DNA from: Hyphomicrobiales bacterium
Lineage (GTDB): Bacteria; Pseudomonadota; Alphaproteobacteria; Rhizobiales; Methyloligellaceae
Assembly: GCA_003135455.1 (NCBI GenBank)
Contig: PLBV01000100.1
Location: forward strand, 13,159 to 45,601
Length of the DNA: 32,443 nucleotides
Direction of reading: 5' to 3'
Shown: positions 1,081-31,370 of the stretch, piece after piece
How positions within the stretch are numbered: position 1 is the stretch's first letter
Layout of the letters: the number at the start of each line of letters is the position of its first letter
Notes under the pieces: generated by a model
What the model saw: the letters and a program-made list of their open reading frames with translations, nothing else
Database searches by the model: none
Told to the model about the DNA's origin: nothing
Program-made: the position numbers and the translations under genes

Positions 1081-1138
1081 GCTCTTGTCCTCCTCTCAAC
1101 CTTGATGACGATCATGGCCTGTTCTTCTGCGTCCCGCT

Positions 1139-2176: not shown

Positions 2177-2270
2177 AAAGGCGCTTCGCTCCAGTTGGCT
2201 CCCGGCCTTTAGGCGACTTTTAAGTGGTCTCTGTGAGCATGCATGGGAAACCAAGGGTGGGCCAACAGTC

Positions 2271-3684: not shown

Positions 3685-3740
3685 AGAGATTGTCCGGACG
3701 CCGGCGACCAGGATCAGATAGGCGATCATGATGGGCAGGC

Positions 3741-4088: not shown

Positions 4089-4096
4089 GCAGGCCC

Positions 4097-8924: not shown

Positions 8925-9049
8925 ATTCTGCGAGCTGGAAACTCCGGCGGAGCCTTCGGCAGCCTTGCCTCGACTTCAGATTTGACTTTCGCGCCCGCGC
9001 ACGGTTCCGTGGCCGCTTTCGTACGCCCTTGAAAAGGACTTCCGAAACC

Positions 9050-10732
9050 GTGACCGTCGCTGAAAGCTTGTCCCCCTCCTCCCCGACCCGCCTGCCTGAT
9101 CTCATCCAGCTCTTGGATGCCGCCACCGAGGCCGCAGGCACGTTGCGCCAGCAGGCGGTGGAAGCCGTCGCTGCCAAGGTCGCACCCGGCGGCAAGCTCG
9201 ACGCTGCCGCGCTGGAGCGCGAGCAGCGCGCCGCCCATGGCCTGGCCTGGGTCGCCACTTACGTCGAGGCGATCCGCCAGATCGCGAGCTATGCCCGGCG
9301 CATGCAAGGCGAGGGGCGCTTCGGCGAGCTGGAGGCGTTGCTGACGCAGATCGGCGTCGCCGAGTACCTGTCGCAACTGTCAGGCGGCGTGATGATGAGC
9401 CAGGGCGAGATCGTGCGCCTGCACGAGCTTGGCCTTGCCGAGAAGGATCACGCCGGCTTGCTGACGCCGGAGGTGCGCGCCCTGATCCTCGGCACAACGC
9501 CTGCCGCGCGCGCGCGCGCCGTGGAGCTGATCCGCGATGCCCAAGGCACCGCCACCTTCGGCGATAGCGGCCTCGATGAGACGCTGGAAGCGATGCGCGA
9601 GGAGATGCGACGCTTCGCCGAGGCCGAGGTGATCCCCCATGCGCAAGCCTGGCACCTCAAGGACGAGTATGTGCCGCTTCCGCTGATCTCGGAGATGGCC
9701 GCGCTCGGCGTCTTCGCGCTCACCATACCCGAGGACTATGGCGGCCTCGGCCTCGGCAAGGAGGCCATGTGCGTCGTCTCCGAGGAGCTCTCCCGCGGCT
9801 ATATCGGCGTGGGCTCGCTCGGCACCCGCTCGGAGATCGCCGCCGAGCTCATCCTCAATGCCGGCACCGACGCCCAGAAGCAGGAGTGGCTGCCGAGAAT
9901 CGCAAGCGGCGAGGTGCTGCCCACGGCGGTGTTCACCGAGCCGAATACGGGCTCTGATCTCGCCTCGATCACCACGCGGGCGGCGCGCGTCGGCGAGGCC
10001 TTTCGCATCACCGGGCAGAAGACCTGGATCACCCACGCCGCCCGCGCCGACATGATGACCGTGCTCGCCCGCACCAATCCCGACGAGAAGGGCTATCGCG
10101 GGCTCTCCATGTTGCTCGCGCCGAAGCCGCGCGGCACCGATTCCGAGCCTTTCCCGGCTGAAGGCATGAGCGGCGGTGAGATCGAGGTGCTCGGCTATCG
10201 CGGCATGAAGGAGTTCGAGATCTCCTTCGACGGCTTCGCGGTGCCGGCCGCCAATCTGCTCGGCGGCGTCGAGGGCCAAGGCTTCAAGCAGCTGATGCAG
10301 ACCTTCGAGGCGGCGCGTATCCAGACGGCGGCACGGGCCATCGGCGTGGCGCAGTCCGCACTCGATCTTGGGCTCCGCTACGGCAGGGAGCGGGTGCAGT
10401 TCGGTAAGCCGATCATCGATTTTCCGCGCGTTTCCGACAAGCTCGCGATGATGGCGGCCGAGATCCTGCTCGCCCGCCAGCTCACCTATTTCGCAGCGCG
10501 CGAGAAGGACGCAAGCCGCCGCTGCGATCTGGAGGCCGGCATGGCCAAGCTGCTCGCGGCGCGCGTGGCCTGGGCTGCCGCCGACAACGCGCTGCAGATC
10601 CATGGCGGCAACGGCTTTGCGCTGGAATATCCGGTGAGCCGGGTCTTATGCGACGCGCGCGTCCTGTCGATCTTCGAGGGCGCCGCCGAGATTCAGGCCC
10701 ATGTCATCGCGCGCCGGCTGTTGGAGGGGTGA
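9050..10732 (+). CDS. mcd: (2S)-Methylsuccinyl-CoA dehydrogenase
   Basis: Mcd is the FAD enzyme that oxidises (2S)-methylsuccinyl-CoA to mesaconyl-C1-CoA. The acyl-CoA dehydrogenase core begins near residue 170 and shows TIPEDYGGLGLGKEAM, FTEPNTGSDLASI, GQKTWITHAARAD and the C-terminal QIHGGNGFALEYPVSR. The roughly 165-residue N-terminal extension and 560-aa total distinguish Mcd from ordinary 380-aa acyl-CoA dehydrogenases. I prefer the GTG at 9050, preceded by AAGGA, while a TTG at 9029 is also in frame. Its electrons should pass to the ETF encoded at 13421-15115. The next gene begins at the base after its stop. Confidence 0.93.
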   Translation: MTVAESLSPSSPTRLPDLIQLLDAATEAAGTLRQQAVEAVAAKVAPGGKLDAAALEREQRAAHGLAWVATYVEAIRQIASYARRMQGEGRFGELEALLTQIGVAEYLSQLSGGVMMSQGEIVRLHELGLAEKDHAGLLTPEVRALILGTTPAARARAVELIRDAQGTATFGDSGLDETLEAMREEMRRFAEAEVIPHAQAWHLKDEYVPLPLISEMAALGVFALTIPEDYGGLGLGKEAMCVVSEELSRGYIGVGSLGTRSEIAAELILNAGTDAQKQEWLPRIASGEVLPTAVFTEPNTGSDLASITTRAARVGEAFRITGQKTWITHAARADMMTVLARTNPDEKGYRGLSMLLAPKPRGTDSEPFPAEGMSGGEIEVLGYRGMKEFEISFDGFAVPAANLLGGVEGQGFKQLMQTFEAARIQTAARAIGVAQSALDLGLRYGRERVQFGKPIIDFPRVSDKLAMMAAEILLARQLTYFAAREKDASRRCDLEAGMAKLLAARVAWAAADNALQIHGGNGFALEYPVSRVLCDARVLSIFEGAAEIQAHVIARRLLEG

Positions 10733-11590
10733 GTGGACGACCGCCCTCCGGCGTCCTCACGCGTGAGCGAGCGCTCCATCCTCATCACCGGTTGCTCGTC
10801 GGGCATCGGGCTGTGCGCGGCAAAGACGCTGAAGGCCCGCGGCTGGCAGGTGTTCGCCACGGCGCGCAAGCCTCCGGACATCGCCCGCCTGCGCGACGAG
10901 GTGGGGGTCGAGGCGCTCTATCTCGACTATGCCCTGCCCGCCTCGATCGCGGCGGCCGCGGATCGGGTGCTCGCGGCGACGGAAGGCCGTCTCACCGCGC
11001 TTTTCAACAATGGCGGCTATGGCCAACCCGGCGCGGTCGAGGACCTCAAGCCCCAGGTGCTGCGCGCCCAGTTCGAGGCCAATGTGTTCGGCTGGCATGA
11101 CCTCACCTGCCGCGTCATTCCGGCGATGCGGACGCAAGGCCGGGGCCGCATCGTGTTCTGCTCCTCGGTGCTCGGGCTCCTTGCCGCGCCCTATCGCGGC
11201 GCCTATTGCGCCTCGAAATTCGCGGTCGAGGCGCTCGCCGACACGCTGCGCATGGAGCTTGCCGGCAGCGGCTTGCACGTGATCCTGATCGAGCCCGGGC
11301 CGATCGCCTCGCGCTTCGTCGAGCACGCCATCGAAGCCTATCGCCGCCATATCGATATGGAAGGGTCGCCGCATCGGGACATCTATCGCGCCCGCATCGC
11401 GCGGATGGAGGAAGGCGGCCAGCAGACCTTCAAGCTCGGGCCGGAGGCCGTGACGGCCAAGCTCATTCACGCGCAGGAAAGCGACAAGCCCAAGTCGCGC
11501 TACTACGTGACCTTGCCCAGTCATGCCGTGGCACTCTTGCGCCGCATTCTCCCGACACGCGCCCTCGACGCGGTCGCCATGCGCAACTAG
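10733..11590 (+). CDS. Short-chain dehydrogenase/reductase
   Basis: This is a 285-aa classical SDR. The cofactor motif TGCSSGIG is near residue 20, NNGG near 89 (the NAG equivalent), catalytic Ser in VFCSSVLG, and the YxxxK pair in YCASK. The C-terminal PGPIASRF loop is also typical. The Arg in ATARKP after strand 2 suggests NADP(H). GTG at 10733 begins directly after the mcd stop, with GGAGG in the end of mcd as ribosome binding site, so the two are translationally coupled. Its substrate is unknown. Ketoacyl or hydroxyacyl-CoA chemistry would suit the neighbourhood, but the subfamily is also common among general oxidoreductases. Confidence 0.88.
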   Translation: MDDRPPASSRVSERSILITGCSSGIGLCAAKTLKARGWQVFATARKPPDIARLRDEVGVEALYLDYALPASIAAAADRVLAATEGRLTALFNNGGYGQPGAVEDLKPQVLRAQFEANVFGWHDLTCRVIPAMRTQGRGRIVFCSSVLGLLAAPYRGAYCASKFAVEALADTLRMELAGSGLHVILIEPGPIASRFVEHAIEAYRRHIDMEGSPHRDIYRARIARMEEGGQQTFKLGPEAVTAKLIHAQESDKPKSRYYVTLPSHAVALLRRILPTRALDAVAMRN

Positions 11591-11632
11591 ACTTCTAGCT
11601 CAGGCGTTCAAAGGGCTGGAAGGGGAAAGGTC

Positions 11633-11824
11633 ATGCAACATCTGCTCGATTACGCCATACCCATCGCACTTGCGGCGGTCGCGATCGTGCTGCTGCTCGG
11701 GCTGTGGAACATGATGCGCGGCGGCAGCCCCAGTCGCAGCCAGATGCTGATGCGGTGGCGCGTGGTGCTGCAGTTCATCGCCATCTGCCTCGTCGCGGCA
11801 GCGGTCTATATTACTTACAAGTGA
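11633..11824 (+). CDS. Small twin-transmembrane protein
   Basis: This 63-aa protein has two predicted membrane helices (residues about 7-26 and 45-61) joined by a basic loop (MMRGGSPSRSQMLMRWR). It resembles the HIG1-like twin-transmembrane proteins that often stand just before cob(I)alamin adenosyltransferase and etfBA in Hyphomicrobiales. GGAAGGGGAAAGG precedes the ATG. HIG1 domain proteins associate with respiratory complexes in mitochondria, but whether this bacterial relative does is unknown. Confidence 0.8.
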   Translation: MQHLLDYAIPIALAAVAIVLLLGLWNMMRGGSPSRSQMLMRWRVVLQFIAICLVAAAVYITYK

Positions 11825-11904
11825 ACCCCGGGACGGCGCCGCTTTCGCTCGCCTCATGCGGGATCGCAGCAAACATGGCTATCCTGCCCGATGACAACGA
11901 AGGC

Positions 11905-11932
11905 TTGACCGCCCCTGGCGCCCGGCTAGGCT
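11905..11932 (+). promoter_or_regulatory. Candidate sigma-70-type promoter for the adenosyltransferase gene
   Basis: TTGACC (11905-11910) and TAGGCT (11927-11932) are 16 bp apart, ending 52 bp before the ATG at 11985. The -35 is good and the -10 is weak. It would start an operon internal to the cluster. Confidence 0.35.
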
Positions 11933-11984
11933 AAGGGCTCTTGGATGGCGAGACCCGCGGGGCCTCGGCGGGTTAGGTTCGGCC

Positions 11985-12560
11985 ATGGTCGTCCTCAACA
12001 AAATCTACACGCGCACCGGCGACGACGGCACGACCGCGCTCGGCTCCGGGCAGCGCGTGGCCAAATACGATCTCAGGGTTGAGGCCTATGGCACGCTGGA
12101 CGAGACCAACGCCGCCATCGGCCTTGCCCGCCTGCATACGCGGATCTCCGACCTTGCGCTCGATGCCATGCTCGCGCGCATCCAGAACGACCTATTCGAT
12201 CTCGGCGCCGATCTCTGCTTCCCGGACGAGACCAAGGACGCCCGCGGGCGCCTCTCGGTGACCGACGCCCAGGTCGAGCGGCTCGAAGCCGAGATCGACG
12301 CGCTCAACCATGCGCTTACCCCGCTCCGCTCCTTCGTGCTGCCGGGGGGATCGCCCGAGGCGAGCTTCCTGCATCTGGCCCGCACCATCTCGCGCCGTGC
12401 CGAGCGGCTGATGGTCGCGCTTGCCGCCAAGGGCGATCCGGTGGGAGAGGCGGGGTTGCGCTACGTCAACCGGCTGTCGGACTTCCTCTTCGTCGCGGCC
12501 CGCTTCGCCAATGACAAGGGCAAGGGCGACGTGTTGTGGGTCAAAGGTCAGAACCGGTAG
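11985..12560 (+). CDS. Cob(I)alamin adenosyltransferase, PduO type
   Basis: The enzyme transfers the 5'-deoxyadenosyl group of ATP to cob(I)alamin, forming AdoCbl. The 191-aa protein shows family hallmarks: the N-terminal ATP motif IYTRTGDDGTTALGSGQRV, E-x-YGTLDETNAAIGLAR, the FVLPGGS motif with H-x-AR-x-x-SRRAER, and YVNRLSDFLFVAAR. AdoCbl is needed by the ethylmalonyl-CoA mutase at 4097-6160, which explains its place in this neighbourhood. The C-terminus ends soon after the NRLSD motif, as is normal. Confidence 0.94.
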   Translation: MVVLNKIYTRTGDDGTTALGSGQRVAKYDLRVEAYGTLDETNAAIGLARLHTRISDLALDAMLARIQNDLFDLGADLCFPDETKDARGRLSVTDAQVERLEAEIDALNHALTPLRSFVLPGGSPEASFLHLARTISRRAERLMVALAAKGDPVGEAGLRYVNRLSDFLFVAARFANDKGKGDVLWVKGQNR

Positions 12561-12579
12561 CGGAAGGCAGTGCAGTCCC

Positions 12580-13293
12580 GTGTTCATCCCCATCCACGAC
12601 ACCAATCCGCTGAAGAGCATCGACTACCAATATGTGACGGTGGCGCTGATCGTGCTCAACATCGCCATCTATGTGATCTTCCTGACCGGCTGGGTGGTTC
12701 CTTTCAACGACGAGGACGCGGCGGCCTTCGCCGTCATTCCGGCGAAGCTGCTGGGGTCCGGTCCAGGCGGTGACATGAGCCTTGCCTCGACCGCCTTCCC
12801 AATCCCTGAGCGGCTCACCCTCATCACCTACATGTTCCTGCATGGGAGCTGGATCCATCTCCTCGGCAACATGCTGTTCCTCTGGGTCTTCGGCGACAAT
12901 GTCGAGGACTCCATGGGCCATCTCCGCTTCATCATGTTCTATCTGATGTGCGGGATCTTCGCCGGCCTCCTGCATGCCTGGATGTCGCCCAAGTCCGATC
13001 TGCCGCTGATCGGGGCAAGCGGGGCCGTGGCCGGCATCATTTCCGCCTATCTCATCCTGCATCCGAGGGTGAAGATCTGGGTGCTGGCGCTATGGCGCAT
13101 CCCGATCAAGCTCACCGCCGCCTGGGCGCTCGGCTTCTGGATCGCGGCCCAGTTCGTCAACCTCGCATTTGACCGCGAGGAGAACGTGGCCTGGTGGGCC
13201 CATATCGGGGGGCTGGCGGCCGGGGCGGTGTTGATCCTGTTTATGCGGCGGCGCGGTGTACCTTTGTTCGACCGCACGCGGGGCGGGGCCTAA
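12580..13293 (+). CDS. Rhomboid-family intramembrane serine protease
   Basis: From GTG 12580 the protein is 237 aa with about six membrane helices. The catalytic dyad is visible: Ser148 in IGASGAVAG and His208 in WWAHIGGLAAG. HxxxGN appears in the second helix (SWIHLLGNMLFLWVFGDNVED). The start VFIPIHDTNPL is typical for alphaproteobacterial rhomboids. GGAAGG lies about 13 nt upstream, 2 nt after the adenosyltransferase stop. Its substrate is unknown. The two-helix protein at 11633 or another membrane protein could be a target, but nothing in the sequence shows this. Confidence 0.92.
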   Translation: MFIPIHDTNPLKSIDYQYVTVALIVLNIAIYVIFLTGWVVPFNDEDAAAFAVIPAKLLGSGPGGDMSLASTAFPIPERLTLITYMFLHGSWIHLLGNMLFLWVFGDNVEDSMGHLRFIMFYLMCGIFAGLLHAWMSPKSDLPLIGASGAVAGIISAYLILHPRVKIWVLALWRIPIKLTAAWALGFWIAAQFVNLAFDREENVAWWAHIGGLAAGAVLILFMRRRGVPLFDRTRGGA

Positions 13294-13319
13294 AAGGCCC
13301 TAGAAATCCCTGGAAAGCA

Positions 13320-13348
13320 TTGACTTGCGGCTGGCCCGGACGTACCGT
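13320..13348 (+). promoter_or_regulatory. Candidate promoter for etfBA
   Basis: TTGACT (13320-13325) and TACCGT (13343-13348) are 17 bp apart, 72 bp before the etfB start. Just downstream, GCAGTTGCGAGATAG (13361-13375) closely resembles GCAGTCGCGAGATGG (6875-6889) upstream of ccr, 13 of 15 positions identical, so it may be a shared regulatory site. Confidence 0.4.
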
Positions 13349-13420
13349 CCCGGCCATTTCGCAGTTGCGAGATAGCGTGCGCTTTGGGGGCCAGTAAAGC
13401 GTGCCTGGAAGAAAAGCCGC

Positions 13421-14170
13421 ATGAAAATTCTCGTGCCCGTGAAGCGGGTGGTCGATTTCAATGTCAAGGTCCGCGTCAAGTCCGACGGCAGCGGGGTCGA
13501 CCTTGCCAATATTAAGATGTCGATGAATCCGTTTGACGAGATTGCCGTCGAGGAGGCCGTCCGCATCAAGGAGCGGGGCGAGGCGGACGAGGTCGTGGCC
13601 GTCTCGATCGGCAGCGCCAAATCCGCAGATACCTTGCGCACCGCGCTCGCCATGGGGGCCGACCGGGCCATCCTGGTGAAGACCGATGCCACCGTCGAGC
13701 CGCTCGCGGTGGCCAAGATCCTGAAGGCTGTGGTGGGAAACGAGAAGGCCGACCTCGTGATCTTGGGCAAGCAGGCCATCGACGACGACTGCAATCAAAC
13801 GGGCCAGATGCTGGCAGGCCTGCTCGGTTGGCCGCAGGGCACCTTCGCCTCCAAGCTCGAGCTCAACGGCGACAAGATCAGGGTGGTGCGCGAGGTGGAT
13901 GGTGGGCTTGAGACGCTTCTCCTCTCCCGCCCGGCAGTGGTCACCACCGACCTCCGCCTCAACGAGCCGCGCTATGCCTCGCTCCCCAACATCATGAAGG
14001 CGAAGAAGAAGACAATCGACGAGACGACGCCCGAAGCGCTCGGTGTCGATATCGCGCCGCGATTGAAGGTGCTTGGCTTGGCCGAGCCCAAAGGCCGCGT
14101 GGCCGGGATCAAGGTTGATAGCGTGGCCATCCTCGTCGAGAAATTGAAGAACGAGGCGGGGGTGCTGTAG
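13421..14170 (+). CDS. etfB: Electron transfer flavoprotein subunit beta
   Basis: EtfB is the AMP-binding half of the soluble ETF dimer that takes electrons from acyl-CoA dehydrogenases and passes them to ETF:ubiquinone oxidoreductase. It is 249 aa, the usual length. It shows [12 protein letters not shown], the [16 protein letters not shown] segment, the AMP-site region [14 protein letters not shown], and the recognition loop [20 protein letters not shown] that docks onto dehydrogenases. Mcd in this window is an obvious electron donor. It is preceded by GGAAGAAA and directly abuts etfA. Confidence 0.97.
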
Positions 14171-15115
<945 letters not shown>

Positions 15116-15142
15116 AGACCAGTGGGTTGATGAGGAATGACG

Positions 15143-16090
15143 ATGGACGACATTGTGCATGGCGCTGGTCGCGAGATCCTCGCCGATCCGAGCTCGCCGC
15201 GCGACCCTGAAGTGATGCCCATTCGCAAGATCGGCGTCATCGGGGCAGGGCAGATGGGCAGCGGCATCGCTCACGTGGTCGCCCTGTCGGGCTATGACGT
15301 GGTGATGAACGACCTCGACAAGGAGCGGGTGGAGGCGGCGCTTGCGGCCATCAACAACAACATGACGCGCCAGGTCGCCTCGGGCAAAATCAGCGAGGAG
15401 GACCGGCAGAAAGCCTTGGCGCGTATCAGCGTTACCGACACCTTCGCGGGCTTCGCCGATGCCGATCTGGTGATCGAGGCCGCCACCGAAGAGGAGACGG
15501 TGAAGCGCAAGATCTTCGTGGCGCTTTGCCCCTTCCTCAAGCCCGACGCCATCGTCGCCACCAACACCTCCTCGATCTCGATCACCAGGCTTGCCGCGTC
15601 GACCGACCGGCCGGAGCGGTTCATCGGGCTCCACTTTATGAACCCGGCGCCGGTGATGGAGCTCGTCGAGATGATCCGCGGCATCGCCACGGAGGACGTA
15701 ACCTTCGGCCGTGCCAGGGATTTCATCGAGAGCCTGGGCAAGACCACGGCGGTGTCGGAAGACTTCCCGGCCTTCATGGTCAACCGCATCCTGCTGCCGA
15801 TGATAAACGAGGCGGTCTATACGCTGTATGAGGGCGTGGGATCGGTCGACGCCATCGACACGGCCATGCGGCTCGGCGCCCACCATCCGATGGGCCCGTT
15901 GCAGCTCGCCGACTTCATCGGGCTCGATACGTGCCTGTCGATCATGCAGGTGCTGTATGAGGGGCTCGCCGATTCCAAGTACCGCCCCTGTCCGCTCTTG
16001 GTGAAATATGTCGAGGCGGGCTGGCTCGGGCGGAAGACCAAACGCGGCTTCTACGACTATCGGGGCGAGAAGCCCATGCCGACGCGCTGA
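15143..16090 (+). CDS. 3-Hydroxybutyryl-CoA dehydrogenase
   Basis: The enzyme interconverts acetoacetyl-CoA and 3-hydroxybutyryl-CoA with NAD(P). It supplies the precursor of crotonyl-CoA, the Ccr substrate. The Rossmann motif [15 protein letters not shown] opens the conserved part. The catalytic His lies in [15 protein letters not shown], and the C-terminal dimer domain ends in [18 protein letters not shown] is spaced best for ATG 15143, and ATG 15137 is also possible. Homology begins only at Met 15215 (291 aa, the family's usual size), so the first 24 residues are either a real extension or untranslated. The gene is probably co-transcribed with etfBA, 27 bp away. Confidence 0.93.
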
Positions 16091-22710: not shown

Positions 22711-23337
22711 TCAGAGCTTCATCTTGAGGCGGGCAAGGTCTTGCGGCGTATCGATGTCTGCGAAAATGCCGTCCGAGGCCATCTCCACTTCGGTCACGCA
22801 CTCCTGGTACCGGGCGATCAGCTGCTTGGCGCCAACGTCGCCGCCTATTCCCATCATCTCGCTGAACAAGGCGGCGCCAAAGAGCACGGGTTTGCCCTGC
22901 CTGCCATGGCGCACCGGCACGCAGATCCCAGCGCCTCCTCGGGCCGCGAAAGCGGTCATCAAGGTCTTCAGATCGCCGCTCTTTATTGCCGGCATGTCGC
23001 CGAGACAGATGAGCGCGCCGTCGGTGTCCGGCGGCAGCGCGCGAAGGCCCGCCCGCAGCGACATGCTCAACCCCTCCTCATAGGATGGATTGTGGACAAT
23101 AGTCACCTCCAGCCCGCGCAGCGCGTCGGCGACACGGGCGGCGTCGAACCCCGTCACCGCGATCACGGGACGGGCGCCGCTGGCAAGCGCGGTCATGGCC
23201 ACGCGGCGCACCATCGGCATCCCGTCGATCGGCTCCAGGAGCTTATTGCGAGGCGCCATGCGGGAAGAGCGGCCGGCCGCAAGAACGAGGCCTGCCACCT
23301 TCAGGGGCTTGCCGACTGGGTGGACGCGTGCGCTCAT
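22711..23337 (-). CDS. mocA: Molybdenum cofactor cytidylyltransferase-like protein
   Basis: MocA transfers CMP from CTP to molybdopterin to form the dinucleotide cofactor of many hydroxylases. The 208-aa protein has the nucleotidyltransferase start VAGLVLAAGRSSRMAPRNKL, the LGDMPAI metal motif near residue 118, GRQGKPVLFG, and the C-terminal DIDTPQDL. Its ATG at 23337 overlaps the xdhC stop (ATGA). The family also contains purine-hydroxylase-specific versions, so the nucleotide is not certain. The divergent molybdo-hydroxylase at 26768 is the evident client. Confidence 0.88.
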   Translation of the reverse strand: MSARVHPVGKPLKVAGLVLAAGRSSRMAPRNKLLEPIDGMPMVRRVAMTALASGARPVIAVTGFDAARVADALRGLEVTIVHNPSYEEGLSMSLRAGLRALPPDTDGALICLGDMPAIKSGDLKTLMTAFAARGGAGICVPVRHGRQGKPVLFGAALFSEMMGIGGDVGAKQLIARYQECVTEVEMASDGIFADIDTPQDLARLKMKL

Positions 23338-24353
23338 CGGCGTCCTTGCCACTTGCCGCGTTGGGTGGCCGTGATCTCGGCGATGATGGAGAGCGCGATC
23401 TCGGCGGACCCTTGCGCCCCGATATCCAGCCCGATCGGCGCGTGAATGCGCTCGATGTCGGCGGCGGCGATTCCCGCTTGCCGCAGCCGCTCGACGCGCT
23501 TGGCATGGGTTTGCTTGCTCCCCAGCGCACCGACGTAGAAGGCCTCGGAGCCGAGCGCATAGATCAGCGCCGGGTCGTCGATCTTCGGATCGTGGCTGAG
23601 CACAACGACCGCGGTGCGGCGGTCGACGCCGATCCTGGGCAGCGCCTCGTCGGGCCATTCTGACGCGATCTCCACCCCGGTAAAGCGCTCTTCCGTGGCG
23701 AAGGCCGAGCGCGGGTCGACGATCGCTACGTCGTAGCCCAAGGCTCGCGCCATGGGCACCAAGCTCTGCGCTACATGCACCGCGCCAATGATGACCAGGC
23801 GGACCCTCGGGTTGAACACATTGATGAAGACTTCGCCGTCGTGACCCTCCAGCGAGACGCTTCTGTCGCGGCCGAACGCATCTTCCAGCGCCAACGCCAG
23901 CTCTCCATGGAGATCGGCCGGCGAATGAGCGAGGTTTGCCGCGCCAGTTGCAAGCTCGGTTACCAGCGCAATGGGGCGGCGTCTCTCCACCTCGCCCAAG
24001 AGCTGGCGCAGAACCCCGTCCGTCGATCCGGCTGCCAGCGGCTGGAGGAAAATGCGAATGGTGCCGCCGCAAGCAAGGCCGACCTTCCAAGCCGTGCCGT
24101 CCTCAACCTTATATTTGAGCACCTTACTCTTGCCGGATGAGAGTACGTCGGCCGCTTCGGTGATGACCGCGCCCTCCACGCAGCCACCCGACACCGAGCC
24201 TAAGAAATTGCCGTCCCCATCGATGAGGAGCTGGCTGCCGACCGGCTGCGGCGCCGAGCCCCAGGTTTGAATGACGGTGGCGAGCGCGACGCGGCGCCCC
24301 TCGGCCAGCCAGTTGAGCGCGCTTCGAAGGATGGATAGGTCCGGTGCAGGCAT
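23334..24353 (-). CDS. xdhC: XdhC-family molybdenum cofactor insertion chaperone
   Basis: XdhC binds Moco, promotes its sulfuration and hands it to xanthine-dehydrogenase-type apoenzymes. The 339-aa protein has the N-terminal XdhC/CoxI domain (ALATVIQTWGSAPQPVGSQL, SVSGGCVEGAV) and a C-terminal Rossmann-like part (VRLVIIGAVHVAQSLVPMA, EAFYVGALGSKQTHAKRVER, HAPIGLDIGAQGSAEIALSI). AGGAAGAG with good spacing supports the ATG at 24353 over one nine codons upstream at 24380. It is divergent from the deaminase gene across about 110 bp. Confidence 0.92.
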   Translation of the reverse strand: MPAPDLSILRSALNWLAEGRRVALATVIQTWGSAPQPVGSQLLIDGDGNFLGSVSGGCVEGAVITEAADVLSSGKSKVLKYKVEDGTAWKVGLACGGTIRIFLQPLAAGSTDGVLRQLLGEVERRRPIALVTELATGAANLAHSPADLHGELALALEDAFGRDRSVSLEGHDGEVFINVFNPRVRLVIIGAVHVAQSLVPMARALGYDVAIVDPRSAFATEERFTGVEIASEWPDEALPRIGVDRRTAVVVLSHDPKIDDPALIYALGSEAFYVGALGSKQTHAKRVERLRQAGIAAADIERIHAPIGLDIGAQGSAEIALSIIAEITATQRGKWQGRR

Positions 24354-24464
24354 AGAACTCTTCCTATTTAGACGCTCCATTGTAATCGGACGATCAAGGC
24401 ATCAATCTCTATTCTTTAACAATGGGCTGCTAATCGTCGCCCAGTTGGCCAACCGAGGATGGGG

Positions 24465-25886
24465 ATGGCGACGCTGCTCGCAAAGAATGCGGACGTGGTC
24501 GTCACCATGGACGGCAAACGCCGGGAGCTCAAAAACGCAGGCCTTTTTGCCCGCGACGGCGTCATCGAGCAGGTGGGACCCACGGCGGAATTGCCGGCCA
24601 CGGCCGATCGGGTGCTTGACCTAAATGGTCACATCTTGCTTCCCGGGTTGATCAACTGCCACCATCATCTCGACCAGGTGCTGACGCGGAATTTGCCCGC
24701 GGGCCAGAACACCAACCTCTTCCCCTGGCTGAAGGCGCATTACCGAATTTGGGCGGCGCGGACGCCCGAAGACACGCGGACGGCCGTGCTGGTCGGCTGT
24801 GCGGAGCTGGCGCGGTCGGGCTGCACCACGGTCTTCGACCACGCTTACGTGTTCAAGAACGGCTGCAAGGTCGATGATCAGATCCACGCCGCGGCCGAGA
24901 TCGGTGTCCGCTTCGTCGTCTCACGCGGCAGCATGTCGCTTGGGCAGTCCAAGGGAGGGTTGCCGCCCGACGACTGCGTGGAAGACGAAGCTGCGATCCT
25001 CAGCGACTCCGTCCGCGTCATCGAGCAGTACCACGACGGCAAGCCCGGCTCTATGCTGAAAATCGTGCTTGCTCCCTGCTCGCCATTCTCGGTCACGGCG
25101 GATTTGATGCGCGAGTCGGCGAAGATTGCGAGACATTACGGGGTCAAGCTGCATACCCATCTCTCCGAGACTTTGGACGAGGAGCGCTTCACCCTCCAGC
25201 ATATGGGCTTGCGACCGGTCGCCTATATGGAGTCTCTGGATTGGGTCGGGAAGGACGTCTGGTATGCCCATGCGATACATGTGAACGACGACGAGGTGCG
25301 TCAGTTCGCCGCCAAGGGCACTGGGGTCTGCCATTGCCCGTCCTCCAATATGCGGCTCGCTTCCGGCATCGCTCCCATCAAGAAATATCGTGACGCGGGT
25401 GTCCGGACCGGGCTCGGGGTCGACGGCTCGGCGAGCAATGACGGCTCGAACCTGCTGATCGAGGTGCGGGAGGCGATGCTGCTGGCGCGGCTGAAGATCG
25501 GGCTTCTCCCGCCGGAAGGGCCAGAGACCGTGCTGTCCACCTCCGATCCCCTCCGAGCCAAGGAATGGATGACCGCGCGCGATGCATTGGAGATCGCGAC
25601 GATCGGCGGGGCTGCCGTGCTCGGGCGCAGCGATATCGGCTCGCTGGAGCCCGGCAAATGCGCCGACTTCTTCACGCTGGATCTCAACGCCATTGCCTAT
25701 AGCGGTGGCTTGAGCGATCCGGTCGCGGCCATCGTCTTCTGCGCACCGACGGGGGCTCGGCATACCGTCGTGGGTGGCCGGCTGATTGTCGACAATGGCG
25801 AGGTGGTGAGCATCGACATGGCCCCTGTCGTTCAGGAGAACAATCGCAACGCCGCGCGTCTGGCCGCGCTGTCGGCGCAAGGCTGA
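24465..25886 (+). CDS. 8-Oxoguanine deaminase-like amidohydrolase
   Basis: This TRZ/ATZ-family zinc amidohydrolase is closest in wording to 8-oxoguanine deaminase, which yields urate and ammonia. The 473-aa protein shows the metal-binding HHH at residues 66-68 (LINCHHHLD), LHTHLSET, WYAHAIHVNDDE and GLGVDGSASNDGSN with the catalytic Asp. GAGG fits ATG 24465 (MATLLAK) better than ATG 24459. It is followed by the FAD and Mo subunits of a purine-type hydroxylase, which supports a purine substrate. Related family members act on hydroxyatrazine, guanine or S-adenosylhomocysteine, so the substrate is inferred. Confidence 0.85.
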   Translation: MATLLAKNADVVVTMDGKRRELKNAGLFARDGVIEQVGPTAELPATADRVLDLNGHILLPGLINCHHHLDQVLTRNLPAGQNTNLFPWLKAHYRIWAARTPEDTRTAVLVGCAELARSGCTTVFDHAYVFKNGCKVDDQIHAAAEIGVRFVVSRGSMSLGQSKGGLPPDDCVEDEAAILSDSVRVIEQYHDGKPGSMLKIVLAPCSPFSVTADLMRESAKIARHYGVKLHTHLSETLDEERFTLQHMGLRPVAYMESLDWVGKDVWYAHAIHVNDDEVRQFAAKGTGVCHCPSSNMRLASGIAPIKKYRDAGVRTGLGVDGSASNDGSNLLIEVREAMLLARLKIGLLPPEGPETVLSTSDPLRAKEWMTARDALEIATIGGAAVLGRSDIGSLEPGKCADFFTLDLNAIAYSGGLSDPVAAIVFCAPTGARHTVVGGRLIVDNGEVVSIDMAPVVQENNRNAARLAALSAQG

Positions 25887-25940
25887 GGCATGGTACCGTC
25901 AGACCGGTGATCTTGCGCTTTCGCCGATAAGGGAACGGCC

Positions 25941-26771
25941 ATGAACCTGAACACTGTTACCGAGGTCAAACGGCCCTCTTCGGCCGACGAGATCACGGGG
26001 TGGCGCGACGGATATGCCTGGCTCGCCGGCGGGACCTGGCTGTTCTCCACCCCGCAAATCGCTACCGACACGCTCATCGACCTTCAGTCGCTGCACTGGC
26101 CCGCGCTTGAGGCTTCGATCCGCGGACTGGATATTGCCGCAACCTGCACGATCGCCGAGCTTGATGGGTTCGAGGCGCCGGCCGCGTGGACCGCCGCACC
26201 GTTGTTGCCGATGTGCTGCCGCTCGCTGCTCGCATCGTTCAAGATCTGGAACGCGGCGACGGTCGGCGGCAATATCTGCATGTCGCTGCCCGCCGGCTCA
26301 ATGATCTCTCTCACGGCCTCGCTGGAAGGCGTCTACATTTTGTGGCCGCGGGACGGAAAACCGCGGGCCGTCAAAGCCGTCGACTTCGTCACTGGCAACC
26401 ATATGAACGTGCTCCAGCCAGGGGAGCTGTTACGCAACATCCATCTGCCCGCGACCGCGCTCTCCAAGCGCTTCGCCTTCCGGCGCTCCTCCCTCACCCA
26501 TCTCGGGCGCTCGGCGGTGATCGTAATCGGCACGCAGACTGCGGGTAGCGACGATCTCCTGCTCACGGTCACGGCGGCGACCGCGAGACCTATGCAAATT
26601 CATTTCGACCATGTGTCGACCACAGCCAAGCTCCGTCACGCCATCGATGCGCATATCTGCGATGCCGACTACTTTGACGATGTGCATGGGTCGGCGGCCT
26701 ATAAGCGGCACCTCACTTATTATTACGCCGAGCAGATCCGCGCCGAGCTCCGGCAGGGAGCCGTGACATGA
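25941..26771 (+). CDS. FAD-binding subunit of a xanthine dehydrogenase-type hydroxylase
   Basis: The 276-aa protein has the FAD_binding_5 domain typical of CoxM/XdhB medium subunits. YAWLAGGTWLFSTPQ lines up with the FAD pyrophosphate loop (usually AGGTDL), and LLASFKIWNAATVGGNICMSLPAGS gives the second FAD motif (usually RNxATIGGN). The C-terminal CO_deh_flav domain is short and unusual (PTHL, RPMQIHFDHV). It would pass electrons from the FeS clusters to NAD. Its last codons overlap the next start (ATGA). Confidence 0.88.
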   Translation: MNLNTVTEVKRPSSADEITGWRDGYAWLAGGTWLFSTPQIATDTLIDLQSLHWPALEASIRGLDIAATCTIAELDGFEAPAAWTAAPLLPMCCRSLLASFKIWNAATVGGNICMSLPAGSMISLTASLEGVYILWPRDGKPRAVKAVDFVTGNHMNVLQPGELLRNIHLPATALSKRFAFRRSSLTHLGRSAVIVIGTQTAGSDDLLLTVTAATARPMQIHFDHVSTTAKLRHAIDAHICDADYFDDVHGSAAYKRHLTYYYAEQIRAELRQGAVT

Positions 26772-29485
26772 ATTGCACCGTCAACGGGAAGCTGATCTCG
26801 GCGGAACCGGCTCCCGGCCAGTGCCTGCGCACCTTCTTGCGCGGCCTCGGATTTTTCGGCGTCAAGAAGGGCTGCGACCAGGGCGATTGCGGCGCCTGCA
26901 CGGTCCATATCGACGGCAAGCCTTTCCATTCTTGCCTGGTGCCCGCCTTCCGCGCCGCAGGGCAGGAGATCACGACCATCGAGGGGCTGGCACGCGACGG
27001 CAGACTGCACCCGATGCAGCAGGCCTTTCTCGATGCGCAAGCCTTTCAATGCGGGTTCTGCACGGCGGGCATGATCATGACAGCCGCAACCTTCGACGAG
27101 CAGGCACATCAGGACCTGCCGCGCATGCTGAAGGGCAATCTCTGCCGCTGCACCGGCTATCACAGCATCGACGACGCGCTCCATGGCGTCGTCAATGTCG
27201 AGGAGGAGGACGGTGGGGGCGATGCCTGCGGCAAGAGCCTGCGCAACCCGTTCGCCCAATCGATCGTCACCGGTCAGGCCCGCTACACCCTCGACGTGGC
27301 GATGGAGGGCGCGCTGCACCTCAAAGTGCTGCGCTCGCCGCATCCGCATGCCCGCATCAAGAGCATCGGCCGCGACAAGGCGCTTGCCGTCCCCGGCGTC
27401 GTTGCCGTCTTCACCTGGGAGGATGTGCCACGCAAGCTCTACTCGACGGCGACGCACGAAGATCACCTCGTGGACCCGGACGATACCTACATGCTCGACA
27501 ATGTCGTCCGCTTCGTCGGCCAGCGGGTGGCGGCCGTCGTGGCCGAAACCGAGGGCGCTGCCGAAGAAGCCTGCCGCTTGCTTGAGGTCGAATACGAGCT
27601 CCTGCCGGCCGTGTTCGATCCGGAAGCGGCCATGGAACCGGGCGCGCCGATCCTGCACGACAAGGGCATGGCGTCGCGTGGCAACATCTATGTCGACATC
27701 CATGGCGAGATCGGCAGCGTCGAGCAGGGCTTCAAGGAAGCCGACGCGATACACGAGATGAGCTATTCAACCTCGCGGGTGCAGCACGTGCATCTGGAGA
27801 CGCACGGCTCCCTCGCTTGGCGAGGCGAGGATGGACGGCTGCATGTGCGGACGAGCTCGCAGGCGCCGTTCATCGCCAAGCAGAAGCTCTGCTATTTGTT
27901 CGGTCTGTTCGACCGCGACGTGCATGTCTTCACCGAGCGTATCGGCGGCGGCTTCGGCGGGAAGCAGGAGATGATCTCCGAAGATCTGTGCGCGCTCGCC
28001 ACGCTGAAGACCGGCCGTCCGGTGATGTGGGAGTTCACGCGGGCTGAGCAATTCATCGGCGCCACCACGCGCCACCCGATGACCACCCATGTGAAGCTCG
28101 GGGCCAAGAAGGACGGAACGCTGACGGCGTTGCAAGTGCGCGTCGTGTCCAATACCGGCGCCTATGGTGGCCATGGTGGCGAGACGCTCGCGGCCGCGCT
28201 TTCCAGTCCAATCGCGGCTTATCGATGTGTAAACAAGAAGGCCGACGGCTATGCCGTCTATACCAACATGATGCCAGCCGGCGGCTTCCGCGGTTATGGC
28301 GCATCGCAAACCACCTTCGCCATCGAATGCGCCGTGGACGATCTCGCCAAGTTGCTTGGAGTTGGTCCCTTCGAGATTCGGCGCAAGAACATGATCCGGA
28401 AGACCGACCGGATCGAGTCGATTTGGAAGGACCCTTCCGATGCCATCTTCGGCAGCTATGGGCTCGACCAATGTCTGGATCTGGTCGAGAAGGCGCTCGC
28501 GAGCGGCCGGGGATTGCCGAAGCCGAAAGGCGAGGAATGGCTCGAGGGCACCGGTATCGCGCTCGCGATGCTAGAATCCGGGCCGCCCACGGAGCACCGA
28601 TCGGGTGCCGAGATGCGGCTGATGCCCGATGGCAGCTACCACGTTGCGGTGGGCTCCACAGAGATGGGAAACGGCTCGACCACCTCACACCGTCAACTCG
28701 TCGCGTCCGTGCTCCACACGCGGGCGGGGAGCATTGCCATCATCAACGGCGATACCGATCTCACGCCCTACGACACGGGCACTTTCGCCAGCACCGGGAC
28801 GGTCGTGGCCGGCCATGCCGTTGAGCTTACCGCGATTGCGCTCCGTGACAACATCACCGACTTCGCCAGGCGTCATTTCGGCTGTGAGGCGGCCGATTGC
28901 CGTTTGCAGGATGACGCGATCATCTGCGCCAACCGGAAGGTTTCGCTCGCCGAACTCTATGCGGCTGGAACCAAGGAGGGCCATCGCTTCGAGGTCAGAC
29001 GCAAGGCATATCTGTCGCCGCGCTCGGTCGGCTTCAACGTGCAAGGGGTCCGCGTCGCCGTGCATCGCGCCACCGGCGAGATCGCCACGCTGCAAAGCGT
29101 GCATGCCGCTGACATCGGGAGATTGATCAACCCCATGCAGTGCCGCGGCCAGCTCGACGGCGCCATCGCCATGGGGTTCGGCTGGGCGCTCTACGAGAAG
29201 ATGGTCTATGACGATCAAGGCGCGATGGTGAACCCGGCGCTCCGCGACTATCGGATTCCGGCCTTCGCCGACGTGCCGCGCAGCGAGCTGTACTTCGCCG
29301 ACACCTATGACAGCGTCGGCCCGCTGGGAGCCAAGGCGCAAGGCGAATGCGCGATCAATGCGGTTGCGCCTGCGATCGCCAATGCCGTCGCCAATGCCAC
29401 GGGGGTGCGCTTCGCCGATCTCCCGCTCACGCCGGACCGCATTTTCGAGAGGCTTAGCCTCGACAAGCTCAGCGCTCGGTCATGA
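26768..29485 (+). CDS. Fused [2Fe-2S]/molybdopterin subunit of a xanthine dehydrogenase-type hydroxylase
   Basis: This 905-aa protein joins two subunits that are usually separate. Residues 1-75 hold the plant-type [2Fe-2S] cluster (C36, C41, C44, C56), and 76-150 the alpha-helical [2Fe-2S] domain (C95, C98, C126, C128 in CGFC...CRC). From about 165 on come the Mo domains with RIGGGFGGKQEM, GGFRGYGASQTTFAIE, TEMGNGSTT and GAKAQGE, whose Glu860 matches the general base of xanthine dehydrogenase. The layout resembles Desulfovibrio aldehyde oxidoreductase (907 aa) but with a separate FAD subunit upstream. With the 8-oxoguanine-deaminase-like neighbour, a purine is the likeliest substrate. A hydroxylated aldehyde or heterocycle cannot be excluded. 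mocA and xdhC serve its maturation. Confidence 0.92.
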   Translation: MNCTVNGKLISAEPAPGQCLRTFLRGLGFFGVKKGCDQGDCGACTVHIDGKPFHSCLVPAFRAAGQEITTIEGLARDGRLHPMQQAFLDAQAFQCGFCTAGMIMTAATFDEQAHQDLPRMLKGNLCRCTGYHSIDDALHGVVNVEEEDGGGDACGKSLRNPFAQSIVTGQARYTLDVAMEGALHLKVLRSPHPHARIKSIGRDKALAVPGVVAVFTWEDVPRKLYSTATHEDHLVDPDDTYMLDNVVRFVGQRVAAVVAETEGAAEEACRLLEVEYELLPAVFDPEAAMEPGAPILHDKGMASRGNIYVDIHGEIGSVEQGFKEADAIHEMSYSTSRVQHVHLETHGSLAWRGEDGRLHVRTSSQAPFIAKQKLCYLFGLFDRDVHVFTERIGGGFGGKQEMISEDLCALATLKTGRPVMWEFTRAEQFIGATTRHPMTTHVKLGAKKDGTLTALQVRVVSNTGAYGGHGGETLAAALSSPIAAYRCVNKKADGYAVYTNMMPAGGFRGYGASQTTFAIECAVDDLAKLLGVGPFEIRRKNMIRKTDRIESIWKDPSDAIFGSYGLDQCLDLVEKALASGRGLPKPKGEEWLEGTGIALAMLESGPPTEHRSGAEMRLMPDGSYHVAVGSTEMGNGSTTSHRQLVASVLHTRAGSIAIINGDTDLTPYDTGTFASTGTVVAGHAVELTAIALRDNITDFARRHFGCEAADCRLQDDAIICANRKVSLAELYAAGTKEGHRFEVRRKAYLSPRSVGFNVQGVRVAVHRATGEIATLQSVHAADIGRLINPMQCRGQLDGAIAMGFGWALYEKMVYDDQGAMVNPALRDYRIPAFADVPRSELYFADTYDSVGPLGAKAQGECAINAVAPAIANAVANATGVRFADLPLTPDRIFERLSLDKLSARS

Positions 29486-30465
29486 ACGACGCAGGCCCCG
29501 CGAAGGCTTCCGGAGTGACGGTCGTCACGCAAACACGGGTTGCACCTGACAAGGCCGATGCCTTCGCCCGCTGGCAGCAGAAAATCAGCGAGGCGGTCGC
29601 GGCCCAACCGGTGTTCATCAAAGAAACCGTCATGCCGCCCGGCCCTCCCGCTCAACTCGACTGGGTCATCCTGCAGCGCTTCGCCAGCAGCGAGGCGGCA
29701 GTGGCGTGGCTCCGCTCCGACGAGCGGCAGCGCCTGGTGGCCGAGGCGCAACCGATGCTGGTCGGCCAAGATGACGTCCATCTCGTTGATGACAGCCAGG
29801 CGGGTGTGTTGCCGGCTCCGGCCTCGGCCGTGATCTCGACGCGGATCAAGCCCGGCCAGGAGAATGCCTACCGGCAGTGGGAGCGCAAGATCGCCGCGGC
29901 GCAGGCGCGGTCACCCGGATTTCAGGGTTACCGGTTCGAGCCGCCGGTCCCGGGCGTGCAGGATGACTGGCTGACCATCTTGAAGTTCGATTCCGAGGCC
30001 AATCTGCAGATCTGGCTGAATTCGCCGGAGCGCAAGACGCTGCTCGCCGAGGCCGCTGCGTTCACCGACGAATTTCATGCGCGCATCGTGCGCACGGGTT
30101 TCGATCAATGGTTTCAGGTCGGGGGCGCCGGAGCAGCTCCGCCGCCACGCTGGAAGCAGAACATGATCGTGCTGCTGATGCTCTATCCGGTGGTTTTCCT
30201 GATCACGGCCTGGTTCGAGCACCCGTTCTTGGTTGGGCACTTGAAGATGTCGCATTGGAGCGCGCTGTTCCTCGACAACGTGCTCAGCGTCCTCGTGCTT
30301 AGCGTTTTGACGCCGTGGGCGAGCCGGCGCCTCGAGTGGTGGCTGCGTCCCGCCGGCGACGATCTCAAGCGCGACATCACTGGAGCGGCGCTGGTGCTGG
30401 GTCTCTATGCCCTTTGCCTTCTCGCGTTCGGGCAATATGAAACTCACGTCTGGCGGCCCTGGTGA
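29482..30465 (+). CDS. Membrane protein with two ABM-like domains
   Basis: This 327-aa protein has two tandem dimeric alpha/beta-barrel (ABM) domains at about residues 10-105 (VTVVTQTRVAPDKADAFARW) and 113-210 (AVISTRIKPGQENAYRQWER). They are followed by three membrane helices at about 228-250, 262-283 and 300-320. The family is annotated as antibiotic biosynthesis monooxygenase-like (COG3224) and has no firm function. The ABM domains precede the first helix and should be cytoplasmic. The ATG overlaps the stop of the molybdo-hydroxylase (ATGA), so the two are translationally coupled. Anchoring or product handling for that enzyme is a guess. Confidence 0.85.
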   Translation: MNDAGPAKASGVTVVTQTRVAPDKADAFARWQQKISEAVAAQPVFIKETVMPPGPPAQLDWVILQRFASSEAAVAWLRSDERQRLVAEAQPMLVGQDDVHLVDDSQAGVLPAPASAVISTRIKPGQENAYRQWERKIAAAQARSPGFQGYRFEPPVPGVQDDWLTILKFDSEANLQIWLNSPERKTLLAEAAAFTDEFHARIVRTGFDQWFQVGGAGAAPPPRWKQNMIVLLMLYPVVFLITAWFEHPFLVGHLKMSHWSALFLDNVLSVLVLSVLTPWASRRLEWWLRPAGDDLKRDITGAALVLGLYALCLLAFGQYETHVWRPW

Positions 30466-30482
30466 TCGGGCTAAACTCCGCC

Positions 30483-31370
30483 ATGATCCGCGCAGCCCTA
30501 CCGATAGTCGCCGCGCTGGTGCTGACGGCGGGCGGCTATGCCAAAGCGGGGGCAGGTGCGGGCGTCACGACCGCCGTAAGCGAGCTGTCGGAGCCGCAAA
30601 CCGGCACTGTCGCGCGGGTCGAGGACGGCGAGACGCTTGAGCTCACCGATGGCTCTGTCGTGCGGCTGATCGGCGCCAAGGCGCCTTCGTCGCCGCTTGG
30701 CTGGCGGGGCGACCGTCCCTGGCCGCTGGTGGAGGAGGCGAAGCAGGCGCTTGACCAGCTCGCCTCGGGTGCCGAGGTGGAGCTCCGCTTCGGCGGTACC
30801 CGCGTCGATCGCCATGGCCATGCGCTCGCCCAGGTCTTCGTGGTGAAGGGGAGGACGCGCGTCTGGCTGCAGCAGGCGCTCGTCGCGGCAGGCTTGGCAC
30901 GGGTCTATTCCTTCCCCGACAACCGCGCTTGCGTTGCAGAGCTCATGGCGCGCGAGGCCGAGGCCCGCGCCGCGCGTAAAGGTGTTTGGGGCGTCTCGGC
31001 CTACCGCATCCGTGACGCCGCCGAGGACCCCGAGCAGATCGCGCGGCTCAAGCATAGTTATCAGCTGGTCGAGGGGGTCGTGGCGGCGGTGGGCGGAGGG
31101 GCGGCGCGGACCTATCTCAATTTCGGCCAGGACTGGCATACCGATTTCACCGTTGAAATCGACCGCAAGGACAAGGCCGCCTTCGCCAGCGCCGGCATCG
31201 ATCTTGGCGCGCTTGCGGCCAAGCGCATCCGGGTGCGGGGCTGGATCGAGTGGCGCAATGGCCCGATGATCCGCGCGAGCCACCCCGAGCAGATCGAGGT
31301 TCTACCGGCGGATGCCGCGCCCAACCCCGTCAGGCCCGAACCGCACGCAGCTGGAGCCGTCGCGCTTTAG
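30483..31370 (+). CDS. Exported thermonuclease-fold protein with altered active site
   Basis: The product is 295 aa from ATG 30483 with a signal peptide (MIRAALPIVAALVLTAGGYA). A GTG at 30462 overlapping the previous stop is an alternative start. The SNase-like domain spans about residues 35-170: ARVEDGETLELTDGSVVRLI, VDRHGHALAQVF and LARVYSFPDNRACVAELM. In staphylococcal nuclease the key residues are Asp21, Asp40, Glu43 and Arg87. Here the equivalents appear to be Glu (DGET), Lys (GAKAPSS), Ser, and His (HGHA). It is therefore probably not a standard nuclease. The C-terminal part (AARTYLNFGQDWHTDFTVEI and RVRGWIEWRNGPMI) resembles an OB-fold. Confidence 0.85.
   Translation: MIRAALPIVAALVLTAGGYAKAGAGAGVTTAVSELSEPQTGTVARVEDGETLELTDGSVVRLIGAKAPSSPLGWRGDRPWPLVEEAKQALDQLASGAEVELRFGGTRVDRHGHALAQVFVVKGRTRVWLQQALVAAGLARVYSFPDNRACVAELMAREAEARAARKGVWGVSAYRIRDAAEDPEQIARLKHSYQLVEGVVAAVGGGAARTYLNFGQDWHTDFTVEIDRKDKAAFASAGIDLGALAAKRIRVRGWIEWRNGPMIRASHPEQIEVLPADAAPNPVRPEPHAAGAVAL

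Follow-up and report, generated by a model that had tools for sequence, protein, structure and literature searches.

A xanthine dehydrogenase family molybdenum hydroxylase encoded with maturation genes and a deaminase in a Hyphomicrobiales bacterium: a putative accessory locus of purine or pterin metabolism

Among the described systems closest to the locus treated here is the mocA-ygfK-ssnA-ygfM-xdhD region of Escherichia coli K-12. A stretch of 32,443 nucleotides from a Hyphomicrobiales bacterium (contig PLBV01000100.1 of assembly GCA_003135455.1; this whole stretch is called the window in the following) shows the same order, with MocA nearby, an amidohydrolase, a separate flavin adenine dinucleotide (FAD) subunit and a chain in which the iron-sulfur (FeS) and molybdenum (Mo) parts of a hydroxylase of the xanthine dehydrogenase (XDH) family are fused. 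An excerpt of PMC12507026 describes the reduction of urate to 2,8-dioxopurine by E. coli XdhD and proposes its Glu606 for urate specificity, and it also reports that xanthine is not consumed upon deletion of E. coli xdhA. An earlier review placed E. coli ssnA in an island with a possible role in the degradation of modified bases (PMC5270733), so the general idea of modified-base breakdown is not new. Marker families of selenium-linked hydroxylase clusters are described in an excerpt of PMC2276186. E. coli XdhA, XdhB and XdhC are three separate chains, whereas the FeS and Mo parts are fused in the window enzyme, which has 34% identity to XdhA. The Desulfovibrio-type aldehyde oxidoreductase MOP (1sij, 1dgj) is likewise a single FeS/Mo chain of about 907 amino acids, alignable to the window chain over nearly its full length; we know of no FAD partner of MOP.

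Judged from their sequences, the genes of the window are best read as an accessory set for one XDH-family molybdenum hydroxylase, consisting of the enzyme, a maturation pair and a deaminase, with a role in purine or pterin metabolism; we put the probability of this reading at roughly 0.5. The locus probably represents known purine chemistry in a variant form. As the hydroxylase was found in only two of 30 genomes of the taxonomic family, the present one included, the set is accessory and probably mobile.

The enzyme belongs to the XDH family by its two [2Fe-2S] domains, its hammerhead and MoCo-binding domains and the catalytic Glu860. All eight cluster cysteines of the FeS/Mo subunit are kept (positions 36, 41, 44, 56, 95, 98, 126 and 128), and among the aligned family members the first four are present in 68 of the 68 rows reaching them and the last four in 70 of 70. 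The FAD subunit was recognised by PF00941 with 54 bits; across 71 rows of the family its GGTWL and AT-GGN motifs are conserved. No match to CO_deh_flav_C was obtained for it in the Pfam scan, a feature shared with E. coli YgfM, in which this domain is missing or below threshold. The pairing of a fused FeS/Mo chain with an FAD subunit encoded by its own gene had been called uncommon in a preliminary description made from the sequence alone. This is only partly right, since fused chains are already known from E. coli ygfM-xdhD and from three NCBIfam models which cover both parts (TIGR03311, TIGR03313 and NF045668). The enzyme is still a branch of its own within the XDH family.

An indication of the substrate comes from the Mo pocket, in which seven positions, picked from motifs and from prior knowledge of such enzymes, were compared. 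Six of these, Glu344, Gln400, Ala476, Arg508, Tyr510 and Glu860, are the same residues in E. coli XdhA, with Gly347 as the sole mismatch (Thr in XdhA, Ile in XdhD). E. coli XdhD is identical at four of the seven, which places the pocket nearer to XdhA than to XdhD. Glu344, Gln400, Arg508 and Tyr510 are invariant in 70 family rows, and Ala476 and Glu860 are found in 66 and 69 of them, respectively. In the aligned structures Gln400 corresponds to Glu in bovine XDH, to Thr in 4-hydroxybenzoyl-CoA reductase (HbaA), to Ala in quinoline 2-oxidoreductase (Qor), to Val in a CoxL protein and to Phe in aldehyde oxidoreductases (MOP). Because six of the seven residues equal those of XdhA, a purine-like substrate of the hydroxylase is favoured, short of proof.

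Comparison with the fused E. coli enzyme showed 31% identity over the full length, together with marked differences. XdhD is devoid of all eight cluster cysteines kept in the window enzyme, it has Gln at the place of the pocket residue Arg508 which is invariant in the window family, and the place of its Glu606 is a gap in all 70 family rows. As an aside, the database record of XdhD (L006 21317-24184) is named Fe-S binding subunit despite the loss of all eight cluster cysteines in the alignment. The window deaminase is different from E. coli SsnA, with 123.5 against 455.5 bits in the SsnA model, and no match to YgfK, HyuA, YgeW, YgeX or YgeY was found in the window at an expect value (E) of 1e-5. 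The XdhD model gave 464.6 against 1101.9 bits and that of the FAD subunit 30.5 against 241.5 bits. Assignment to the selenium-dependent molybdenum hydroxylase (SDMH) or XdhD-type selenium-linked cluster was rejected on these three scores and the missing YgfK, and membership of the reductive urate pathway of XdhD and SsnA on the scores, the five missing genes and the differences in pocket and cysteines. Neither does the chain belong to the MOP-type aldehyde oxidoreductases, as it reached 422.8 against 1100 bits with NF045668 and has the pocket motif GGGFGGKQ where MOP has GGTFGYKF.

The deaminase, which the preliminary description had likened to 8-oxoguanine deaminase, indeed exceeds the curated cut-off of the respective model NF006055 (Table 1), and it fails the guanine deaminase model TIGR02967 (148 vs 375.4 bits). 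Its best structure matches were 3hpa (E 6.3e-159) and 7ww2 (E 1.6e-142), and with the PRK08203/NF006055 family represented by these it keeps HxH, the Gln after HxH, HTH--E, -AH- and GVDGSASND. An excerpt of PMC6186785 places the metagenomic isocytosine deaminases URA3, URA4 and Vcz in the same deaminase family and reports activity of relatives on isocytosine, guanine and 8-oxoguanine; for two metagenomic relatives it mentions, with data not shown, the conversion of 8-oxoguanine to urate and of guanine to xanthine. For the wider guanine-deaminase cluster, part of PMC12828455 lists several purines, pyrimidines and s-triazines as substrates, and AtzB homologues, according to an excerpt of PMC13054789, can have native substrates that were not expected, such as N2,N2-dimethylguanine.

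Within a table of 41 rows the window deaminase and nine other sequences formed a separate subclade with support values of 100/99. These ten rows are marked by HHHL[DN]Q, CTT-FDH, [YF]AHA-HV and an insert of about 20 residues; sequences outside the subclade as a rule show HHHMYQ or a motif like it, CTTSSDH and HAHCVKL and are devoid of the insert, and two of them (L186, L187) carry a different insert at the same place. In the window protein the motifs read HHHLDQ (68-73), HTHLSE (232-237), YAHAIHV (from 269) and GVDGSASND (from 320), with the insert near 348-370. The Cys-to-Ser exchange in HCPCSN was dismissed as a mark of the subclade, both letters occurring inside and outside of it. An extra loop between helices 10 and 11 is described for URA4 (GenBank MH015235) in the excerpt of PMC6186785 and may be the same insert. 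By our own comparison, not a published definition, the deaminase thus departs from other NF006055 members in three motifs and the insert beside the catalytic residues, and since the altered positions flank these residues in sequence, a changed substrate of the subclade is plausible. A well-marked subclade of "8-oxoguanine deaminases" of this kind should not be presumed to be active on 8-oxoguanine. For 8-oxoguanine-type deaminases of the same taxonomic order, an XDH-type hydroxylase gene (Mo or FeS subunit) was located within 10 kb in eight of 20 loci, which are not fully independent as some share a genus, and in none of 33 random windows (Fisher p 1.4e-4).

The surroundings of the hydroxylase were compared in the best 80 of 90 relatives that a single scan of named genomes had yielded, their best segments being 57-88% identical, with 33 random 20-kb windows from other genomes of the same order, not from the genomes holding the 80 loci, as a control. 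These loci are mostly from Alphaproteobacteria and Actinomycetota, with one or two each labelled Vulcanimicrobiota, Planctomycetota, Verrucomicrobiota and Myxococcota; about six phyla are represented, although many of the genomes are metagenome-assembled (MAGs) and some labels may be wrong. Cultivated carriers of the set include Reyranella massiliensis and Microvirga antarctica. A survey of the class at E 1e-150 gave the window alone. When it was repeated with a looser threshold of E 1e-100, matches were obtained in 63 of 289 genomes, and among the matches listed all but two showed 31-37% identity. The FAD gene is directly 5' of the FeS/Mo gene in all 71 loci with at least 850 nucleotides upstream, and therefore this core is more than a chance arrangement. 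In 66 of 74 loci the next gene on the 3' side of the FeS/Mo gene encodes a membrane protein with an ABM domain, and such a gene is present anywhere in 71 of 80; a multicopper oxidase or a secreted protein, which we call cluster 5, was seen in 53 of 64 loci. ABM, multicopper oxidase and cluster 5 were each absent from all 33 control windows. The ABM protein plus either multicopper oxidase or cluster 5 are constant partners of the hydroxylase, and this neighbourhood of ABM protein and secreted copper oxidase is more interesting than the one flagged in the preliminary description. No description of an XDH-type hydroxylase in the company of these two partner classes, ABM membrane proteins and secreted copper oxidases, was found in the open-licence library searched.

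Deaminases acting on 2-amino rings occur near the hydroxylase in two families, one of the 8-oxoguanine type as in the window (5/80 loci) and one GuaD-like (7/80), which speaks for the purine or pterin reading; their enrichment is suggestive at best, and with five of 80 loci the window-type deaminase was rejected as a constant part of the module. When four of the GuaD-like genes were scanned with TIGR02967 (cut-off 375.4 bits), one passed with 423 bits (L025), two remained below with 307-312 bits (L057, L073) and one was scanned as a fragment (L036). Of six FeS/Mo genes accompanied by a deaminase, the FeS/Mo tree accommodated three, and these fall on separate branches. In the locus L022 an 8-oxoguanine-type deaminase and the hydroxylase set stand beside a gene for a cytidine-deaminase-fold protein (13126-13605, minus strand; TadA model 67.4 vs 150 bits), which is possibly a guanine deaminase of the Bacillus subtilis type.

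Cluster 5 is mostly a secreted helical protein of about 368 amino acids, encoded in 25 loci (e.g. L080:5980-7086), 19 of which are represented in the alignment, and in many loci of the Reyranella type its gene immediately precedes that of the FAD subunit. It had no Pfam match. Its AlphaFold model had a mean predicted local distance difference test score (pLDDT) of 78.4 and yielded a single, weak match at E < 0.001, to 4jx2 (E 5.4e-5, template modelling score 0.36). A gene for a PhyH-type dioxygenase (e.g. L053:3277-4107) was observed in 28 of the 80 loci, often downstream of the ABM gene in those drawn.

The host genome is a draft of 2.68 Mb which is 84% complete, so that absences from it are weak evidence. 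A search with TIGR03313 yielded one other hydroxylase, a pair of a 157-amino-acid FeS and a 764-amino-acid Mo chain; since this pair is only 24-25% identical to XdhA and XdhD, no XDH-like candidate other than the window enzyme was seen in the genome. A guanine-deaminase gene on another contig (C57; L228 8913-10241) reached 398 vs 375.4 bits only when pieces were summed, and its frame is interrupted in the assembly; it may be broken or contain sequence errors. It was also considered that this gene may make the window deaminase superfluous, with the same reservation as to summed score and interrupted frame. The closest FeS/Mo relative in the named collection, with 88% identity, is from a Hyphomicrobiaceae MAG (L065), where the order is XdhC / copper oxidase-ABM-FAD-FeS/Mo, the copper oxidase and FAD matches each coming in two pieces. 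A match of equal identity, beginning at an identical contig position, was seen in a genome of the genus to which the window belongs, which makes the host a probable member of the Hyphomicrobiaceae. On contig C103 of the host itself (L135) a RidA-like gene is followed by a multicopper oxidase with a long C-terminal part (671-3898) and a second ABM gene (3906-4844), and then by a 180-nucleotide remnant of a second FeS/Mo gene (4953-5132) with DNA identities of 84.9% to the window copy and 90% to that of the Hyphomicrobiaceae MAG. From this remnant and the gene order in the MAG it may be concluded that the lineage probably once held a copper-oxidase version of the set, the window copy being the deaminase version.

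The genes with their domains and cofactor ligands, the conservation of gene pairs and the residues of the pocket are observed; from them a course of events can be proposed, in which all substrates, the sequence of reactions, the redox partner and what the ABM protein does are inferred. MocA, which is probably a molybdenum cofactor cytidylyltransferase, would convert the cofactor to its cytosine-dinucleotide form, and XdhC would bind this form so that it can be sulfurated and inserted. Together, the FAD and FeS/Mo subunits would constitute one enzyme, in which electrons pass from Mo via the two [2Fe-2S] clusters to FAD. The deaminase would take the 2-amino group off a guanine-like ring, which may be isocytosine, a pterin or a derivative of guanine. 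Either the resulting compound or a purine or pterin related to it would then be oxidised by the hydroxylase, and what this reaction yields is probably handled or further oxidised by the ABM membrane protein.

A number of observations weigh against such a role in purine or pterin metabolism. The FeS/Mo subunit is below every NCBIfam cut-off (570 vs 780 bits with the best XdhA-type model NF043082, 552.6 vs 916 with PRK09970 and 424.2 vs 830.45 with TIGR03311), and it fails the curated equivalog threshold for xanthine dehydrogenase proper. The hallmark pair of bovine XDH, the purine-binding Glu802 and Arg880 (positions counted in the alignment), is replaced by Gln400 and Ala476, but E. coli XdhA also has Gln and Ala at these places. 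The deaminases are not significantly enriched near the hydroxylase (12/80 loci vs 1/33 controls, p 0.06), and even less so the window type alone (5/80 vs 1/33, p 0.43). All eight associations of deaminase and hydroxylase were found among the 16 loci outside the subclade of the window and none among the four inside; these four other members, from a survey of 297 genomes of the order, are without the window-type hydroxylase within 10 kb, one of their genomes carrying it elsewhere. In the closest relative, the place upstream is taken by the multicopper oxidase and another ABM gene, with no deaminase. To our knowledge the usual partners, multicopper oxidase and cluster 5, are also not part of purine pathways. 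An alternative is a hydroxylase acting on an aromatic compound, an aldehyde or another N-heterocycle, with the ABM protein and the secreted laccase-like multicopper oxidase forming one oxidative pathway and the deaminase being incidental or a side branch. It draws on the frequency of these partners compared to the controls, on the scarcity of window-type deaminases, on the RidA-like gene, multicopper oxidase and second ABM gene beside the FeS/Mo remnant in the same genome, and on 4-hydroxybenzoyl-CoA reductase being the best PDB match of the FeS/Mo subunit by score. However, the pocket agrees with XdhA at six of the seven positions, none of the aldehyde, quinoline, CO and benzoyl-CoA enzymes aligned has its Gln400, and GuaD-like or 8-oxoguanine-type deaminases accompany the hydroxylase in several lineages. 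We regard this alternative as less probable than the purine or pterin reading. A further scheme is somewhat speculative and rather doubtful: the FAD, fused FeS/Mo and ABM set, mostly joined by cluster 5 or by the secreted multicopper oxidase of laccase-like type, might be an undescribed oxidation pathway distributed across about six phyla by gene transfer and fed by guanine-type deaminases in some lineages, where a cytoplasmic Mo hydroxylase would deliver an oxidised purine or pterin to the ABM protein and an exported copper oxidase for further processing. If real, such a module would link three classes of enzyme, the XDH-type hydroxylase, the ABM membrane protein and the secreted copper oxidase, and would provide a first testable function for these genes where they occur in organisms related to Reyranella, Hyphomicrobium, Mycobacterium and Rhodococcus.

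The preliminary description had favoured salvage or detoxification, with 8-oxoguanine being deaminated and the hydroxylase helping to turn oxidised purines into urate. The family assignment of the deaminase and the two metagenomic relatives converting 8-oxoguanine to urate and guanine to xanthine agree with this. However, 8-oxoguanine and water give urate directly; as deamination alone suffices, the hydroxylase would be redundant and its co-expression needs another reason. The deaminase is set apart by its subclade and by changed residues next to the catalytic ones, the four other subclade members found in the survey of the order are not near this hydroxylase, and the occurrence of the hydroxylase in two of 30 family genomes is unlike housekeeping repair. 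The urate-degrading genes expected elsewhere did not turn up either: searches of the 84%-complete genome for the families of PuuD-type urate oxidase, OHCU decarboxylase and xanthine/uracil permease gave no match, and they did not extend to other enzymes or transporters of urate. The route from 8-oxopurines to urate is therefore weak and appears improbable, while a purine-type substrate in the broader sense retains the backing of the pocket residues, Gln400 among them, and of the deaminase-hydroxylase proximity, which leaves the earlier interpretation as a whole partly supported. Least probable by far is a reductive urate pathway as in E. coli, in which an XdhD-like enzyme would reduce urate and the amidohydrolase would open the ring like SsnA. 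The shared order of SsnA, YgfM and fused XdhD with MocA nearby, the activity described for XdhD and the full-length identity to it would suit this pathway, but it is largely refuted by the low SsnA and XdhD scores, by the missing YgfK, HyuA, YgeW, YgeX and YgeY, and by the cluster cysteines and pocket Arg which the window enzyme has kept and XdhD has not.

The coordinates of the locus are collected in Table 1, the Pfam domains of the five core genes being counted only above gathering scores. As had been proposed, the genes from mocA to the FeS/Mo gene form two divergent arms 78 bp apart, XdhC-mocA leftward and deaminase-FAD-FeS/Mo rightward, and all five open reading frames are intact. Adjacent genes overlap by four bases, the mocA start by the XdhC stop and the ABM start with the FeS/Mo stop among them; the exception is a gap of 54 bp between the deaminase and FAD genes. 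The extent originally given, 22711-29485, thus comprises these five genes correctly but ends too early, since the ABM gene is part of the same operon. The following nuclease-like frame overlaps the ABM stop codon and is absent from the 36 conserved clusters drawn for related loci; it is possibly the tail of the operon. A promoter scan detected no sigma-70-like site in the 78-bp divergent gap. In the maturation pair, XdhC scored 207 bits with NF045664 (cut-off 350) and 96.8 bits with TIGR02964 (cut-off 161.6), and within the window the YqeB profile matched this gene only (76.6 bits).

Table 1. Features of the hydroxylase locus, with positions counted from the first nucleotide of the window.
Feature	Position	Strand	Length	Profile matches and remarks
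MocA-like MobA/NTP-transferase	22711..23337	-	208 aa	NTP_transf_3 126 bits; TIGR03310 best NCBIfam model, 145.6 bits (cut-off 186.45)
XdhC-type maturation factor	23334..24380	-	348 aa	XdhC_CoxI and XdhC_C above gathering
Divergent intergenic stretch	24381..24458		78 bp	
Deaminase	24459..25886	+		NF006055 619.6 bits (cut-off 532); Amidohydro_1
FAD subunit	25941..26771	+	276 aa	FAD_binding_5 only
Fused [2Fe-2S]2 / molybdenum subunit	26768..29485	+	905 aa	Fer2, Fer2_2, Ald_Xan_dh_C, MoCoBD_1 and MoCoBD_2 in one chain
ABM-domain membrane protein	29482..30465	+	327 aa	PF03992 49.5 bits, 2 stretches; hydrophobic C-terminal part
Staphylococcal-nuclease-like protein	30462..31370	+		PF00565 39.6 bits; start uncertain

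Elsewhere in the window a block of the fatty-acid-oxidation type (9029-16090) encodes an acyl-CoA dehydrogenase, a short-chain dehydrogenase, both subunits of the electron transfer flavoprotein and a 3-hydroxyacyl-CoA dehydrogenase, and positions 2013-3530 encode a hybrid histidine kinase with a C-terminal receiver domain.

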